Source: Acidobacteriota bacterium
Lineage (GTDB): Bacteria > Acidobacteriota > Terriglobia > Bryobacterales > Bryobacteraceae
DNA: 64,000 nucleotides
Reading direction: 5' to 3'
NCBI GenBank assembly: GCA_014584705.1
Contig: JACTMJ010000009.1
Span: 216,928 to 280,927, forward strand
Shown here one piece after another: positions 8,726-53,034 of the stretch (its first letter is position 1; every line of letters begins with the position of its first letter). A model generated the notes under the pieces. That model worked only from the letters and a program-made list of their open reading frames with translations. It made no database searches and was not told the DNA's origin. A program made the translations under genes and the position numbers.

Positions 8726-11700
8726 ATGCTTGAGCGCCTCGTCCAGTTCCATTTAGACAATCGCTGGCTCGTCTTCGCGGGCCTGCTTGCGCTTCTCGGA
8801 GCGGGTGTTTACGCGCTGAGCAACGTCGCCATTGAAGCCTTCCCGGACCTCACGCCCAACCAGGTGACGATCGTTACCACGGCCCCCTCCATGGCTCCGG
8901 ACGAAGTGGCGGATCTGGTCACGTACCCGATCGAAGCCAGCGTGATGGGCCTGCCCAAGGCAGAGGGCGTGCGCTCCATCTCGAAACTCGGGCTCTCAAT
9001 GGTCACTGTCTCCTTCGACGATTCGGTGAACATTTACTTCGCCCGGCAGATCATCAATGAACGCATCCAGGAGGCAAAGACGCGCCTGCCATCGGGCCTC
9101 GAGCCGACGCTTGGTCCCGTCGCCACGGCCTTCGGCGAAGTCTACCAGTACACCGTCGAAGGCGACAAGTATTCTCTGATGGAACTGAAAACCATCCACG
9201 AATGGATGGTGAAGAACCATCTGCGCAGCGTCCCGGGCGTGAATGAAGTGAATACGTGGGGCGGGGAAACGAAGCAGTTCCAGGTGGTTGTGGATCCCGT
9301 CCGCTTGCAATCCTACGGCCTCACGCTCGGCGAGGTGTACCGGCGCATCGCCGCCAACAATGAGAATTTCGGCGGCGGTTACATTGAGCACGCCTTTGAG
9401 CAATACACGGTGCGCGGTCTCGGCCGGGCGCGCGGCATCCAGGATATTGAGAACATCGTGATGTTCTCCTCGGATGGCAGTCCGGTGATGGTGAAGGATG
9501 TCGCCAAGGTGGAGTTGGGCGCGATGCCGCGCCAGGGCGCGGTCACACGCGATGGCCTGGGAGAACGCGTCTCCGGCATGGTGATCATGCTCAAGGGCGA
9601 GAACGGGAAGCGCGTTATTGAGCGCGTAAAGCAGAAGCTGTCGGAACTTCGCCTTCCGGAAGGCGTCAGCCTCCGGCCCTTTTACGATCAGTCCGAGGTG
9701 ATCGATTCCACCATTGCCACCGTCAGCCGCAATCTCCTCGAAGGCGGGTTATTGGTGGTGGTGATCCTGCTGCTCTTTCTGGGCAATATTCGAGCCGCGC
9801 TGATCGTTGCGGCGGTCATCCCGCTGTCGTTGCTCTTTGGTTTTATCGGGATGATGGCTTTCGGAATCAGCGCCAACCTGATGAGCCTGGGTGCAATCGA
9901 TTTCGGCATGATGGTGGATGGCTCCGTCGTGATGATGGAGAATGCCGTCCGGGGGCTGAAGCGCGACGCCGGCGACGTTCGATTCAATGCGATGCAGCGC
10001 ATTCGAGCGACATCGGCGGAGGTTGCGCGCCCCATTGCTTTCGCGGTCGCCATCATCATCGCCGTCTACCTTCCCATCCTTACACTCGAAGGGCTCGAAG
10101 GGCGTATGTTCCGGCCCATGGCCATCACGGTTTGCAGCGCCCTGCTTGGTTCACTTATTCTTGCCCTCACGGTCGTCCCCGCGGTTGCCGGTACCCTGCT
10201 GAAAAACGGGGTTAAGGAACAAACGGAGCACCGCTTCGATCGCGTACGGCGTCGCTATGTTGCTCTCTTGCGCTGGGCTTTTTCCCATCGTGCCGCGGTG
10301 TTAGCCTTGGCCGCGATTGTACTGGTCGTGGCCTTCGGCTCCCTGGGCTTCATCGGTACGGAATTCATGCCCCGCCTGGATGAAGGCTCCATCCTCCTGC
10401 AAACCATCAAGCTTCCCGGCATTTCGCTTTCGGAATCCATTGCGGGGAGCGGGGAAGTGGAGAAAGTACTCCATGAGTTTCCGGAAGTGACCAGTGTGGT
10501 CAGCAAGATCGGCCGTCCCGATTTCGCTACTGAAGCAATGGGTATCTATGAGGCCGACGTGCACGTCATTCTCAAACCGCGGGAGCAATGGACCACCGCC
10601 CATACCAAGGAAGAGCTCATAGAAGCAATCGATAACAAGCTCAAGGTGATCACCGGTATCGGAATCAACTTCACCCAACCGATGGCGATGCGTCTGGATG
10701 AAACGGTGTCCGGCACCAAGGGCGATGTGGCCCTGAAAATCTTCGGCGACGACACGGATACCCTGCAGCGGCTTGCCGAGCGCGCCCTGCACATCCTCAA
10801 TCGCATCCCGGGTGCGGCCGATACGCAGATGGAAGTGATTTCCGGGGTGGCGGAACTTCGGATTCGCGCGGATCGCCTCGCCCTCGCTCGCTACGGCCTC
10901 AATGTCGACGATCTCCGGCTCGTGATGGATTCCGCCGTCGGCGGCAGCACGATTTCGGAATTCATTGAAGGTCAGCGCCGTTTCGATATCGTGCTGCGCC
11001 TGCCCAAGAGCTATAGCGACTCCCCGGAACACTTCAAACGCATCCTGCTCTCCGCGCCCGGCGGAGAGCGCGTGGCGCTTTCCGACGTGGCTACCATTGA
11101 GCTTGCGCGCGGGCCGGAAGTGGTGGCTCGCGAAGATGGCCACCGGCGGATTGTGGTTCAGGCGAATGTGCGGGGCCGCGACATGGGCGGCTTCGTCGCG
11201 GAAGCGCAGCGAAAGGTGGCAACAGGGTTAGCGCTGCCGCCGGGCTACTCGCTCGCATGGGGCGGCCAGTTTGAGAATCAACGCCGCGCCATGTATCGGC
11301 TTGCCATCGTCGTTCCCGCTTCCATCCTCATCATCTTCGGCTTGCTCTTTGCCACCTTTCACTCCGCCCGGCATGCATTGCTGATTCTGCTGAATGTTCC
11401 CTTCGCGATGGTCGGCGGCATCGGGGCGCTCTGGCTCCGCGGTTTGAATCTGAATGTCTCCGCGGTGATCGGTCTGCTTGCGTTGTTTGGTGTCGCGGTT
11501 CTGAACGGGATTGTTCTGGTTAGCTATATCAACCAACTCCGTCAGCAGGGTAAGCCGCTGATGCACGCCATCTACGAAGGCTGTTCCATGCGATTGCGCC
11601 CGGTGCTGATGACCGCGCTCGTAGCCAGCCTGGGCTTTGTTCCCATGGCGCTTTCCACGTCGCCCGGCGCGGAGGTCCAGCGCCCTTTGGCTACGGTCGT

Positions 11701-45842: not shown

Positions 45843-48194
45843 CTATGCCACGAAGGGCAGATAGGCGCGCTTGATGGTTTTCTTCGGGTCGAGCGATGCG
45901 GTGTCCGCGCCCAGTTGCTCGAGAGTTCCTTTCACGGTGACGAGGCTCATGATCTTTCGCTGGATCTCCGGGGAGGTGGCCACGGTATCGATGAGGTAGG
46001 GCCAGATGCCTTCGCGCCCGGTGATGCCGCGCACGTGGATGGTCTTTCCCTGATGCTCCACGCTGAACTCACGCATGTGGAAGATGATGTCGTTGATCGT
46101 ATAGCCGTTGAGGGTGACGGTGGGGTCCCCGTACAGGCCGAAGAGCACGAGCGTGCCGCCGTCTTTCACCATGGCCAGACATTGGTCAAGGACTTTGCGG
46201 GAGCCGCCCGCGATATCGATGATGGCATCGAAGCCCGGGCCGCCGGTGAATTCCGCGACGTCCGCGGCGAGCGTGGGGGAGGCGGAATTGAAAACGGCAT
46301 CCGCGCCGAAGGTCTTCGCGCGCTCCAACCGGCCGGGGTCTATCTCAAAGGCAGCCAGTTTCTTCACGCCGAAATTCTTCGCGAACAACTGCGTCATCAG
46401 GCCGTGATAGCCGCAGCCCACGATGCCCACCGTGCCGAGCAGGCTGTTGTCGAAGAGATACTTCGCCACCAGACAATCGTTGCCCACACCTTCGAGCAGG
46501 GAGGGGAAGAAGGCCGGCTCGCTGAGCACGTTTGGCACGACGTGTGCGCAATAGGTGGGGATGGTGGCGTACTCGGCATAGCCGCCATTCAGGGGGCGCA
46601 AATACTCGCCATTAACACTGGGGCCCCAGAGGCCGATGATGCCCTCTTCGGGATATCCGGGCATGATGTAGTGGCTCTCGGCAACGACGCGCTGGCCGAG
46701 CTTGTAGCCGCGGACGTTCGAGCCCACGTCGACAATTTCGCCGAAGAGTTCGTGGCCGGGCACGATACCTTCCTGGACGTGCGGGAACTTGCCGCGGAAG
46801 AGATCTTCGTCAGTGCCGCACACAGAGACGCAGCGCACCTTCACCAGCAATTCGCCAGGCATCGGGCGGGGCATGGGCACTTCGGCCAGCTCAATGTGCG
46901 GCCCCTCCGGCGTAGCTTCCTTTCGATATACCCAAGCCTTCATGGTGCGGCGCGGTTTGGCCGCCAAGGCACTGGCCGGAACATCCGCTTCGCCGCCCAG
47001 AATGCCTTCTTCGCGGCCGGCGATGGTGAAGGCCTCCACGCAGCGTTCCACCTGCTCCCGGGTGTGGGCCGCGCACAATTGCACGCGAATTCGCGCCGCG
47101 CCTTTCGGGACCACCGGGAAGCTGAAGCCGATCACATAAACGCCGAGTTCGAGCAAGCGCTCCGCCATCCGGGAGGCGAGGCGCGCATCGCCGAGCATGA
47201 CCGGCGCGATGGGGTGCGTGCCTTCCGGCACGTCAAAGCCCACATGGCGCATGCTGGAGCGGAAAAGCTGGGTGTTTGCCTGGAGGCGCGCGCGCAGTTC
47301 CGCGCCTTCGTCCGACTCCACCACGTCCATGGCTGCCATCGCGCCCGCCACGAGGCTCGGGGGAACGGAGTTCGAAAACAGATAGGGTCGCGAGGTGTTG
47401 CGCAGCCACTCGATGAGCACTTTGCGGCCCGCGGTGAAGCCGCCGCTGGCACCTCCGAGCGCCTTGCCAAGCGTGCCGGTGATGACGTCGGGCTGCACGC
47501 CAAAGTGCTCTCCCGTGCCGCGGCCGTTCTCCCCGATAAAGCCGGTGGCGTGGCAATCGTCGACAGCCAGCAGCGCGCCATACTTCCGCGCGATGGGGAC
47601 CAGCTTGTCGAGCGGCGCGAGAATACCGTCCATGCTGAAAACGCCGTCGGTGATCGCAAACACGGCCCGCTTATGGCCGGGGTCGCCGTCGCGGGCTTCC
47701 TTGAGCGCGCGTTCGAAATCTTCGGGGCTGCGTTCGTCGTAGGGCAGGCGTTTGCACTTGGTGAGCCGAACGCCGTCGATGATGCTGGCGTGGTTGAGGC
47801 GGGCGCTCAGGATGACGTCGTCCGCGCTCGCAACACTCTCGAACAGACCGCCGTTGGCATCGAAACAGGACGAATAGAGGATGGCGTCCTCCATGCCAAG
47901 GAAGCGGGCAATACGCTCTTCCAACTGCTTGTGGATCTTCTGTGTGCCACAGATGAAGCGCACCGATGACAGGCCATATCCGTAAACATTCAGCGCATGG
48001 TGGGCAGCCTCCGTCACGCGCGGGTGGTTCGCGAGGCCGAGGTAATTGTTCGCGCAGAAATTCAGAACGGGCTGGGGATTTCCGGAGAGGAAAAGCTCCG
48101 TCGCCTGGGAACTGGCGATGATGCGCTCGTGCTTTCGCAGCCCGGCAGCTTCCCGTTCTTTCAGACCGGCTTCCAACTTCTCGTAGATCGTCAT
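45843..48194 (-). CDS. Fused 2-amino-3-ketobutyrate CoA ligase / L-threonine 3-dehydrogenase-like protein
   Basis: 783 residues. Residues 1 to about 400 are glycine C-acetyltransferase (Kbl): FCANNYLGLANHPRV, YSSCFDANGGLFE, DDCHATGFIGENGRGTGEHFGV and the PLP lysine in TGTLGKALGGASGGF. Residues 418-783 (from MKAWVYRKE) are a zinc-type medium-chain dehydrogenase like Tdh: catalytic Cys in VSVCGTDEDLF, GHE, and the NAD loop GIVGCGYHGL. The two consecutive steps of threonine breakdown are thus on one chain. The four-Cys structural-zinc loop of Tdh enzymes is missing. No ribosome-binding site precedes the internal ATG. An alternative is a biosynthetic role with the neighbouring sugar genes. Confidence 0.93.
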   Translation of the reverse strand: MTIYEKLEAGLKEREAAGLRKHERIIASSQATELFLSGNPQPVLNFCANNYLGLANHPRVTEAAHHALNVYGYGLSSVRFICGTQKIHKQLEERIARFLGMEDAILYSSCFDANGGLFESVASADDVILSARLNHASIIDGVRLTKCKRLPYDERSPEDFERALKEARDGDPGHKRAVFAITDGVFSMDGILAPLDKLVPIARKYGALLAVDDCHATGFIGENGRGTGEHFGVQPDVITGTLGKALGGASGGFTAGRKVLIEWLRNTSRPYLFSNSVPPSLVAGAMAAMDVVESDEGAELRARLQANTQLFRSSMRHVGFDVPEGTHPIAPVMLGDARLASRMAERLLELGVYVIGFSFPVVPKGAARIRVQLCAAHTREQVERCVEAFTIAGREEGILGGEADVPASALAAKPRRTMKAWVYRKEATPEGPHIELAEVPMPRPMPGELLVKVRCVSVCGTDEDLFRGKFPHVQEGIVPGHELFGEIVDVGSNVRGYKLGQRVVAESHYIMPGYPEEGIIGLWGPSVNGEYLRPLNGGYAEYATIPTYCAHVVPNVLSEPAFFPSLLEGVGNDCLVAKYLFDNSLLGTVGIVGCGYHGLMTQLFAKNFGVKKLAAFEIDPGRLERAKTFGADAVFNSASPTLAADVAEFTGGPGFDAIIDIAGGSRKVLDQCLAMVKDGGTLVLFGLYGDPTVTLNGYTINDIIFHMREFSVEHQGKTIHVRGITGREGIWPYLIDTVATSPEIQRKIMSLVTVKGTLEQLGADTASLDPKKTIKRAYLPFVA

Positions 48195-51264: not shown

Positions 51265-51747
51265 TTAGTTTGCCTGCCGGATCGTCAACGAGGTCACCTG
51301 GCGAATCCAGCGAGCGCCGCGCTTTTCTCCAGGAGCTACCAGTTGAAACGGCTTCGCGTTGTCGGGCAGCGGCTTGCCATCCCGCATGGTCACCACGTAG
51401 ACCGGCTTGTCCATGAATCCGGCGTCCAGCTCCGCCCATGCATAGAGCACCTTATATCCATCCTTGCCCTCGGCAAGCAGGTAGTAGGACGCAGCCGTGC
51501 CGTGATACTTCTCGCCCAACGGCAGACTCACTTTGGCAATCACATCCTTCAGGAGCACGCCCTGGAAGGTGGCCGGGCTCCCGTGGTCCAACGTCTTAAT
51601 GGTGTGGCTGGGGAGTTTGGAGAGATCCGCGTTCGTAACCACAGCGGTCGTTCCGCCAAGCCCCCGAATCGTGAGCGTGGATTGTCCTTGGGCCCCCGCG
51701 GCGGGTAGCAGCAGCGCGCAGGCGAGAATCAGCGTTTTGAAAGTCAT
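51265..51747 (-). CDS. Secreted sulfite-oxidase-fold (molybdopterin-binding-like) protein
   Basis: 160 residues from the ATG at 51747 after AAGGAAAC. Signal peptide MTFKTLILACALLLPAAGAQG; the mature part is a single Oxidored_molyb-like domain (STLTIRGLGG, LPSHTIKTLDHGSPATFQGVLLKDVIAKV, YHGTAASYYLLAEGKDGYKVLYAWAELD, PFQLVAPGEKRGARWIRQVTSLTI). The mature sequence contains no cysteine, so the usual Mo-ligand Cys is absent and it may be a non-catalytic pterin or ligand binder. It is second in an operon with a 103-residue protein, divergent from a secreted tetrapyrrole methylase. Confidence 0.85.
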   Translation of the reverse strand: MTFKTLILACALLLPAAGAQGQSTLTIRGLGGTTAVVTNADLSKLPSHTIKTLDHGSPATFQGVLLKDVIAKVSLPLGEKYHGTAASYYLLAEGKDGYKVLYAWAELDAGFMDKPVYVVTMRDGKPLPDNAKPFQLVAPGEKRGARWIRQVTSLTIRQAN

Positions 51748-51779
51748 GAGTTTCCTTTGCATCTCAGGTTTGAATTGGG

Positions 51780-52091
51780 TCAAGCGGGCATTGTGTTCGT
51801 GTCCCGGCGCGTGAGCAGACCGACGAAAGCCCGGTCCGGCGGCGGTTCGGGGATGCCGAGAGTGAGATCCGGCCGGGAATTCACGAACGCGGCGAGGGAG
51901 GAACGAAGTTCCGAGGTATCGGCGACGCAGGCGTAGAGCGCGGAGCCTCGCGCGGATGCGGCGGCGGGCATGCGACCGTGAGGATCGTTCAAGGACGCCT
52001 TCCACCGCGACGGCATATCCGGATGGGCGGCAAAAAGATTCAAGGCAAAGTCCGGAAGGGAAACGGGAATAAGAGGGCGAAAAAGCTTCAT
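51780..52091 (-). CDS. Hypothetical protein, first gene of the small secreted-redox operon
   Basis: 103 residues (MKLFRPLIPVSLPDFALNLF at the start). No signal peptide or known domain is recognised. It begins 21 bases after a strong sigma-70-like promoter on this strand and ends 32 bases before the sulfite-oxidase-fold gene. The promoter and position argue that it is real, but codon content alone does not prove it. Confidence 0.45.
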   Translation of the reverse strand: MKLFRPLIPVSLPDFALNLFAAHPDMPSRWKASLNDPHGRMPAAASARGSALYACVADTSELRSSLAAFVNSRPDLTLGIPEPPPDRAFVGLLTRRDTNTMPA

Positions 52092-52111
52092 AGAATCGGA
52101 GCGTAATGTGC

Positions 52112-52139
52112 ATTATACACGACGATGTGATATAGACAA
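52112..52139 (-). promoter_or_regulatory. Sigma-70 promoter driving the 103-residue and sulfite-oxidase-fold genes
   Basis: On the minus strand TTGTCT (52139-52134) and a perfect TATAAT (52117-52112) are separated by 16 bases. Transcription should begin near 52105, about 14 bases ahead of the ATG at 52091. The -10 region also forms an imperfect dyad GTGcATtATaCAC at 52108-52120, a possible operator shared with the divergent methylase gene. Confidence 0.7.
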
Positions 52140-52143
52140 GACT

Positions 52144-53034
52144 ATGTACAAGTTGTTTCCGAGATTCGTCATGCTCGCACTCCTGGCCTTCACCTGCTGC
52201 CACGGAGAGGTTCTCGCGGGCGAGGGTAAGTTCGTGATCGTCGGAATGGGAACCGCTCCCGACCTGATCACGCTTCGAGGACAGAAGACGGTTTCCGAAT
52301 CCGACGTGCTGCTCGCCGAGGAGGGAGATATCGCAGGAATGTGGCCGGAATTCGCCGTTGGGAAAGAGGTTTGGGAATGGCCGCGCAACTTCCGGAAGTT
52401 CTACGGCGCGGACCCGGAGAAAATCGCGAGTGGGGCGCAGCGCGCCGAAGCGATCCGCCTCCAGCAAGTTCGCCGCGACCTCATTGCCCGGATTGTGGCC
52501 GCGGTGAAGGCCGGAAAAACAGTGGCATGCCTGCAGGGCGGAGATCCGATGATGTACGGCATGACCTTGTTCCTGGAGATGCTCCCCGAGAGCGTGCCGA
52601 CGGAGATCGTGCCGGGGGTTGGCGCATTCCAGGCGGCGAGCGCGGCGCTGAAGCAGAGCCCGCCTTACGGCTACGACACGAGCGCGGTGATCCTCACGCA
52701 GGACGATTGGGCGGGTCGCCTCGACGACAACGAGAAGCTGATGGCGTCGGGAAGCACGATGGTGTTCTACACCATGAACCTCGACTATCCAAGGCTCTTC
52801 GAGAAGCTCAAGCGGTACTACCCGCCGGAGACGCCGGTGGCGGTGGTCCGCGATGCGGGCGACCTCTCCCGGGAGGCGGTTACGCGAAGTACGGTGGCGC
52901 GTTTTCTGGCCGAAGTGGATCCGAACTCCCTGCCCGCGCACCGGCACATGCTGTTCGTGGGGAAATTCCTCGAAGCCGGACAAGCCCGGAAAGATTTCAC
53001 CCCAAGAATCGCCAAAACGGCGGCGAAGGAGTAG
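52144..53034 (+). CDS. Tetrapyrrole methylase-family protein with a signal peptide
   Basis: 296 residues. The N-terminus MYKLFPRFVMLALLAFTCCHG, then EVLAGEGK, is a signal peptide (cleavage after VLA). It is followed by the SAM-dependent tetrapyrrole methylase fold: VIVGMGTAPDLITLRGQKTVSESDVLLAEEG, CLQGGDPMMYGMTLFLEM, IVPGVGAFQAASAALKQSP, and a CobM/CbiF-like end ETPVAVVRDAGDLSREAVTRSTVARFL. Such enzymes normally act in the cytoplasm on precorrins or siroheme precursors. Export of one is strange because SAM is cytoplasmic. It is divergent from the sulfite-oxidase-fold operon. Starting without the signal would need an internal GTG with no ribosome-binding site. Confidence 0.85.
   Translation: MYKLFPRFVMLALLAFTCCHGEVLAGEGKFVIVGMGTAPDLITLRGQKTVSESDVLLAEEGDIAGMWPEFAVGKEVWEWPRNFRKFYGADPEKIASGAQRAEAIRLQQVRRDLIARIVAAVKAGKTVACLQGGDPMMYGMTLFLEMLPESVPTEIVPGVGAFQAASAALKQSPPYGYDTSAVILTQDDWAGRLDDNEKLMASGSTMVFYTMNLDYPRLFEKLKRYYPPETPVAVVRDAGDLSREAVTRSTVARFLAEVDPNSLPAHRHMLFVGKFLEAGQARKDFTPRIAKTAAKE

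Follow-up and report, generated by a model that had tools for sequence, protein, structure and literature searches.

A predicted exported methylase-fold protein paired with a sulfite-oxidase-fold protein in an Acidobacteriota genome, with a possible role in TonB-linked metal uptake

The window analysed here is a stretch of 64,000 nucleotides from Acidobacteriota bacterium, a soil bacterium (assembly GCA_014584705.1, contig JACTMJ010000009.1). It contains two genes on opposite strands whose products are both predicted to be exported: a CbiF-fold tetrapyrrole-methylase-like protein (TPM) and a sulfite-oxidase-fold protein (SUOX, PF00174). The coordinates of the locus and its divergent 52-base gap agree with the original prediction (Table 1). 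A 12-bp palindrome (TAATGTGCATTA) inside the divergent promoter region could be an operator. An operon of SUOX and a 103-residue open reading frame (ORF) had also been proposed. The SUOX partner is upheld, but the ORF is not: it matched no Pfam family at E ≤ 1, and tblastn (E ≤ 0.01) against 192 collected sequences returned only copies of itself. It is thus listed as a candidate gene only.

Table 1. Features of the TPM/SUOX locus, with positions counted within the window
Feature	Position	Strand	Basis
TPM, 296 aa, predicted exported	52144..53034	+	PF00590, 110.1 bits; exported branch 100/100 on tree
Predicted Sec signal peptide of TPM, 25 residues, MYKLFPRFVMLALLAFTCCHGEVLA	52144..52218	+	sequence; simple rule passed
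Altered S-adenosylmethionine (SAM) loop, GMGTAPDL instead of GxGPGD	52243..52266	+	GxGPGD in 0/120 listed relatives
GDP loop of the methylase fold, retained	52540..52548	+	GDPM in 119/120 listed relatives
SUOX protein, 160 aa, predicted exported, no Cys after residue 30	51265..51747	-	PF00174, 29.7 bits
Divergent intergenic region, 52 bp	52092..52143	.	sequence
103-residue ORF on the SUOX strand	51780..52091	-	candidate gene; no family match

The signal peptide and the CobM/CbiF-like fold that had been claimed for TPM were both recovered, the former as a prediction. The PF00590 match (cut-off 27.8 bits) covers residues 29-252, and the nearest sequences in the PDB are those of CbiF (2cbf/1cbf, 70 bits with the family profile). 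The closest NCBIfam model is CobM/CbiF (TIGR01465), yet a score of 81.1 bits against a cut-off of 259.65 leaves TPM below the equivalog level. The N-terminus reads as a Sec-type signal and passes a simple signal-peptide rule. An internal start lacking the signal was considered and rejected: the ATG at codon 10 still lies inside the signal, and the next ATG or GTG codons (V31 and M35) fall inside the first beta strand/motif, so that starting there would break the fold. In the protein search, 7999 best candidates were scored, and 120 of the 1968 matches are listed as relatives (at least 59% identity, window protein included). The rule is positive for 113 of these 120, and the other seven begin within or after the signal. 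It is a crude rule that is also positive for 33/120 mature starts and for 17/53 window genes; it is not specific, yet the gap between 113 full-length and 33 mature starts is large. Predicted exported TPMs recur among the listed relatives. Matches in plasmid records were distant, all 29 falling below 60% identity, and were rejected.

A tree was built from 72 methylase domains; in it, 44 exported rows are set apart from 28 cytosolic ones by a branch supported at 100/100. The exported rows comprise clade A, to which the window protein belongs, B (standalone and tandem forms) and F (forms fused to SUOX domains). Clade A is a single group at 100/100; B is not a single group. The tree program flags a meeting of long branches, and the cytosolic rows are a narrow sample, mostly long Acidobacteriota proteins that we read as SUMT-type plus one CbiF-like row. 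One row (cyt_L004, a wrong ORF) and one short second ORF of L069 were left out (here and below, L numbers denote collected loci and G numbers genomes).

According to excerpts of PMC6478909, the GAGPGD loop and Asp83 of CobM contact SAM or S-adenosylhomocysteine (SAH), and a phosphate ion occupied the SAM/SAH site in CbiF. We take Asp83 to be the Asp of the GDP loop. GxGPGD was found in none of the 120 listed clade-A proteins, three of which begin inside the loop. Among the 120 listed fused forms, 6 have GxGPGD and 108 have GxG[SC][GA]D; several B rows also have GxGPGD. Of the 29 cytosolic rows, a number of which are shortened, 21 show GxGPG[DR].

The SUOX protein of the window scores above the PF00174 cut-off of 24 bits, covering only positions 68-162 of the 169-position profile, and has a signal-like N-terminus. 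The predicted lack of the Mo-ligand Cys was borne out: in nine of 12 single-domain members, the window's included, no Cys follows residue 30, and no Cys is common to all. The protein aligns with both SUOX domains of the fused proteins. Rows of the VIA fold-search listing, in which the methylase domain takes their place, lack the SUOX domains and are uninformative on the SUOX fold.

The pairing of the two folds is real. TPM and SUOX lie next to each other in the window and also in two relatives from the same genus, and both folds lie in one chain in 118 of the 120 listed relatives of the Acidobacteriota protein L067:5094-6815. Since the exported TPM family is large and the folds are fused elsewhere, the pairing is more than chance, and the association extends beyond the window genome. 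The c-heme motif CxxCH is found in 113 of the 120 listed fused relatives. Beside c-heme SUOX genes in L104 (12336-13945) and L102 (9891-11418), a small ResB-like protein is encoded together with a membrane protein, and the two resemble a pair dedicated to cytochrome-c assembly. Pfam supports the ResB match (30.7 bits) but not the partner, as L067:8138-8917, provisionally named CcsA, had no Pfam match.

Among 61 relatives, SUOX proteins like that of the window were found at 13 places, spread over 10 genomes, of which nine belong to the same family and one to the same order. PF12727 regulators, which we assume to sense molybdate, adjoin three of them. In L186 the regulator is accompanied by ModA and a permease-ATPase fusion and in L187, from the same genus, by a MOT1 molybdate transporter; L181 has just the regulator. 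PF12727 lay within 3 kb of SUOX in 3 of 29 cases, against 0.011 expected (Poisson, random placement assumed). At six other places (L005, L006, L055, L182, L183 and L185) an MbnH-type di-heme enzyme adjoins SUOX instead of MbnP. The assignment is above the TIGR04039 cut-off (362.85 bits) in L005 (419.9), L055 (446) and L185 (433.1) and by blastp only in L006, L182 and L183; a TonB receptor is also present in L005, L006 and L055, and L182 has MbnH, SUOX and CbiM-CbiQ together. As SUOX takes the place of MbnP beside MbnH, this suggests that SUOX may be a substrate oxidised by the neighbouring enzyme.

Some relatives of the pair lie beside genes for molybdenum or tungsten (Mo/W). On one strand of L061, a molybdenum cofactor (Moco) riboswitch, found in one of 70 sources scanned, is followed by ModA, a Mo-type permease, a WtpC-like ATPase and then a clade-A methylase. 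One strand of L102 carries a double SUOX, the ResB-like gene with its partner and a TonB receptor, together with a ModE-like regulator (76.3 bits, cut-off 98.5), MobA, a TupA-like substrate-binding protein (SBP), MogA, MOSC, MoaC, MoaA and MoeA; a molybdopterin oxidoreductase (PF00384) is found on the other side. L111 and L118 combine a TupA-like SBP, a permease and an ATPase with a PF12727 or ModE-like regulator. FmdE accompanies a TupA-like SBP in L007, L062-L066, L104, L108 and L159 and stands alone in L114 and L158 (blastp); Pfam matches to FmdE were obtained in L007, L062, L065, L108, L114 and L158. In two loci (L065:10498-11982 and L063:10506-11963) FmdE is fused to the TupA-like SBP, with CxxCH and a signal-like N-terminus.

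The genome searches scored the best few candidates per genome (for example 3, 4, 6 or 8), so that their counts are lower bounds. Of 297 Desulfobacterota genomes, at least 20 contain a fusion or a double SUOX that matches the fusion profile (E ≤ 1e-60), and at least 18 have a standalone or tandem TPM at E ≤ 1e-35. From the 23 places with such TPMs, 20 loci were added; G436:C225 equals L007, G566:C24 equals L113, and G644:C144 was left out. L057 overlaps L100, L067 lies within L104, and L166 is a near-copy of L007. By raw count without a control, a TonB receptor was present in 34 of the 40 loci collected from these genomes (custom hidden Markov model (HMM), E ≤ 1e-5) and an APC-family amino-acid permease in 18. 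There were 46 matches to TupA-like SBPs in 32 genomes; 17 lay within 6 kb of a TPM or SUOX gene versus 0.27 expected, or 14 versus 0.22 when neighbouring matches were merged. This co-location is drawn from 14 genomes of two phyla, and its significance is overstated, since genes are taken as randomly placed in the Poisson tests and related genomes, G125, G162 and G220 among them, are not independent.

Across loci, a TonB receptor and an exported methylase fold recur, often accompanied by SUOX domains; importers and regulators vary between Mo/W and nickel, cobalt or cobalamin. We tentatively propose, at somewhat less than even chances, that the predicted exported pair bind a scarce metal in the periplasm and hand it on, the metal being most likely molybdate or tungstate, or a chelate of it, imported via a TonB receptor. 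At the level of sequence this is supported by the signal-like N-termini, the lack of GxGPGD and of the Mo-ligand Cys, the fusions, and the TonB and Mo/W neighbours of relatives. In this scheme, the receptor would bring in the metal, and TPM and SUOX, presumably interacting in the window organism, would receive the cargo in the periplasm and pass the metal to an importer. The TPM pocket would bind a metal ligand or chelate instead of methylating with SAM. To our knowledge there is no SAM in the periplasm, which is the established view; together with the absence of the SAM loop in clade A, this favours binding over methylation. The receptor may be that of a TonB-SUOX-MbnH locus that lies on the window's contig at about 169 kb (G000:C6), some 100 kb from the pair. 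The metal in the window organism would probably be Mo/W, but sister clades carry nickel, cobalt or cobalamin signals. The heme motif of the fusions and MbnH near the window's relatives might add a redox step, which is speculation. Of the functions suggested originally, a metal-ligand system or use of the fold for binding fits the neighbourhoods; tetrapyrrole handling is weakly supported (riboswitch in L153, neighbours in L106 and L107, c-heme motif); near the window's own clade and SUOX relatives we saw no signs of it.

A more specific version of this proposal is doubtful: TonB-driven scavenging of group 6 metals, and possibly of the pterin cofactor too, in which paired Cys-less SUOX domains would hold the pterin or oxyanion, the SAM-free exported methylase fold would hold a nucleotide or oxyanion, and molybdate or tungstate would be released to TupA/ModA importers. 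The methylase would then count as the third fold of the B12 pathway to have been adapted for acquiring metals in the periplasm, with nickel and cobalt served by its sister versions.

Several observations weigh against the proposed hand-off of Mo/W. The link to these metals is drawn from relatives, none from the window itself, where we found no TonB receptor in the remaining sequence (HMM, E ≤ 1e-3) and no Mo/W-specific gene (blastp against the reference set). Four of the 13 SUOX places (window, L179, L180 and L184) have neither MbnH nor a PF12727 regulator. No SBP reaches the cut-off of the TupA model (NF041772, 400 bits), which is why we call them TupA-like; the best (366.6 bits) is not beside TPM or SUOX, and G000 (the window genome), G003 and G004 have no TupA-like match. 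The TPM family was found at E ≤ 1e-40 in only 6 of 396 Acidobacteriota genomes, the window's included, a count that is a lower bound. The structure model of TPM is weak (pLDDT, the predicted local confidence score, 65.8) and served only for the fold-search listing. Other metals also appear: tandem TPMs adjoin DUF4198 and CbiM/CbiQ (L150, L156 and L157), L106 and L107 adjoin CbiB, a CobD-like aminotransferase and other cobalamin-type genes, L120 adjoins a FecCD permease, and a cobalamin riboswitch (L153:12179-12369, minus strand, 103.8 bits, gathering threshold 31.5) lies 149 bases ahead of a TonB gene, which is itself followed by a tandem TPM. Because tandem TPMs sit with DUF4198, CbiM/CbiQ and this riboswitch, the family is not limited to Mo/W; the methylase fold seems to be the common part, and the metal-specific parts vary.

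These cobalamin signals would suit corrinoid or cobalt salvage, in which a BtuB-type TonB receptor feeds a periplasmic corrinoid-binding methylase fold. Besides the riboswitch in L153 and the neighbours in L106 and L107, this explanation can draw on a second riboswitch in L151, ahead of a different gene, on CbiM in L150, L156 and L182, and on one receptor whose best NCBIfam match is TonB-B12 (137 bits, cut-off 599.7). The riboswitches, however, occur in only two of 70 sources, both with B-type TPMs; none was found near clade A, fusions or SUOX, nor in the window, and the idea leaves TupA-like SBPs, FmdE and Moco genes unaccounted for. We regard it as unlikely. Similarly low is our estimate for a pair of heme or tetrapyrrole chaperones, in which the methylase fold would hold the macrocycle for heme uptake or for the assembly of c-type cytochromes. 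The CbiF fold, CxxCH in the fusions, the ResB-like neighbours and MbnH at 6 of 13 SUOX places speak for it. But MbnH and the ResB-like genes have their own ties to heme, as carriers or as helpers, so that a chaperone role of the pair is not needed to explain them, and the neighbour class tested against chance is the TupA-like SBP.

Alternatively, the exported TPM could still be a SAM enzyme, with an APC permease exporting SAM (or an amino-acid ligand) so that TPM methylates a metallophore and the metal is released. Of the 120 listed relatives, 119 keep the GDP loop; GxGPGD is present in several rows from other exported clades, and APC-family permeases are frequent neighbours of exported methylases in L106-L116 and L150-L167: 10 of 20 SUOX or fusion loci and 8 of 20 TPM loci have one, with Pfam AA_permease_2 confirmed in L113, L150 and L165. 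Yet the window's clade lacks GxGPGD throughout the listed proteins, the window has no APC match at E ≤ 1e-4, and a SAM-exporting APC permease is itself hypothetical; we consider this unlikely. It is very improbable that TPM is an exported peptide N-methylase akin to the borosin enzymes: the two have a fold in common, but this similarity is the entire link, and no search aimed at precursor peptides was made.

The proposed hand-off of Mo/W can be compared with known systems. TPM differs from the CobM/CbiF precorrin-4 C11-methyltransferase in that it is predicted to be exported, lacks GxGPGD, stays under the TIGR01465 cut-off and has no adjoining cobalamin gene, although the Asp of the GDP loop is retained; the predicted signal peptide makes cytoplasmic tetrapyrrole methylation doubtful. 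CbiK(P), the periplasmic cobaltochelatase of Desulfovibrio, resembles the predicted exported TPM in that an enzyme of the tetrapyrrole pathway has been relocated to the periplasm in related bacteria; its fold and reaction differ. YedY/MsrP and sulfite oxidase have PF00174 in common with SUOX, whereas the window SUOX lacks the Mo-ligand Cys and matches the profile partially. ModABC-type importer genes adjoin some TPM/SUOX relatives, as do genes of TupABC oxyanion importers; we know of no TonB receptor or TPM/SUOX protein as part of either system. The available portion of PMC12583661 describes HmuS, a CobN-like de-chelatase of the TonB-linked hmu operon that removes iron from heme. As with relatives of TPM, an enzyme family of the B12 pathway is found there beside a TonB receptor for an imported metal compound, but HmuS is a chelatase rather than a methylase fold and acts on iron in heme. 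HmuS is an example of a B12-pathway enzyme recruited to TonB-linked metal handling.

In the text of PMC3621798 at hand, MbnH is found in methanobactin operons, and its close relatives had, as of 2013, no data tying them to copper. As in MbnP/MbnH pairs, the MbnH of L005, L006, L055 and L185 has a TonB receptor and a protein predicted to be exported as neighbours; here, however, this partner has the SUOX fold and is not MbnP. Later work is said to have dealt with MbnH and copper. DUF4198 proteins, confirmed with Pfam beside TPMs in L156, L157 and L163 and indicated by an N-terminal pattern in 8 of 20 TPM loci, bind nickel and neighbour TonB receptors and NikR-type regulators; a methylase partner is not mentioned in the sections of PMC12537917 at our disposal.

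Two further observations concern the window and its genome. A 783-residue ORF at 45843-48194 (minus strand) combines an aminotransferase (PF00155) with a zinc alcohol dehydrogenase (PF08240, PF00107), presumably a Kbl-Tdh fusion by our own naming. The window genome has three further PF00590 matches, all on other contigs. One PF00590 protein of this genome (L188:10612-11412, minus strand, G000:C10; 60.3 bits) stands beside an 89-residue ORF without family (10322-10591, plus strand), with a PF12727 regulator gene 1.5 kb away; the two may be a split-borosin-like peptide N-methylase and its precursor.

Porins are the generally assumed route by which molybdate and tungstate enter the periplasm. Judged by their titles, none of the papers listed in the literature searched (open-licence PubMed Central papers only) is about a TonB-linked route for both metals, and the listings, some of them capped, showed no exported tetrapyrrole methylase, in agreement with the original view that no such system had been reported. 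A TonB-linked Mo/W route would be new, if true. The system is open to experiment because, going by the species names of the listed matches, Desulfosarcina, Desulfonema and Desulfocarbo carry tandem-type proteins. The exported branch raises the question of what role a methylase fold has in a compartment where one would expect no SAM, and it would call for re-annotating many of the proteins at present called 'precorrin-4 methylase'.
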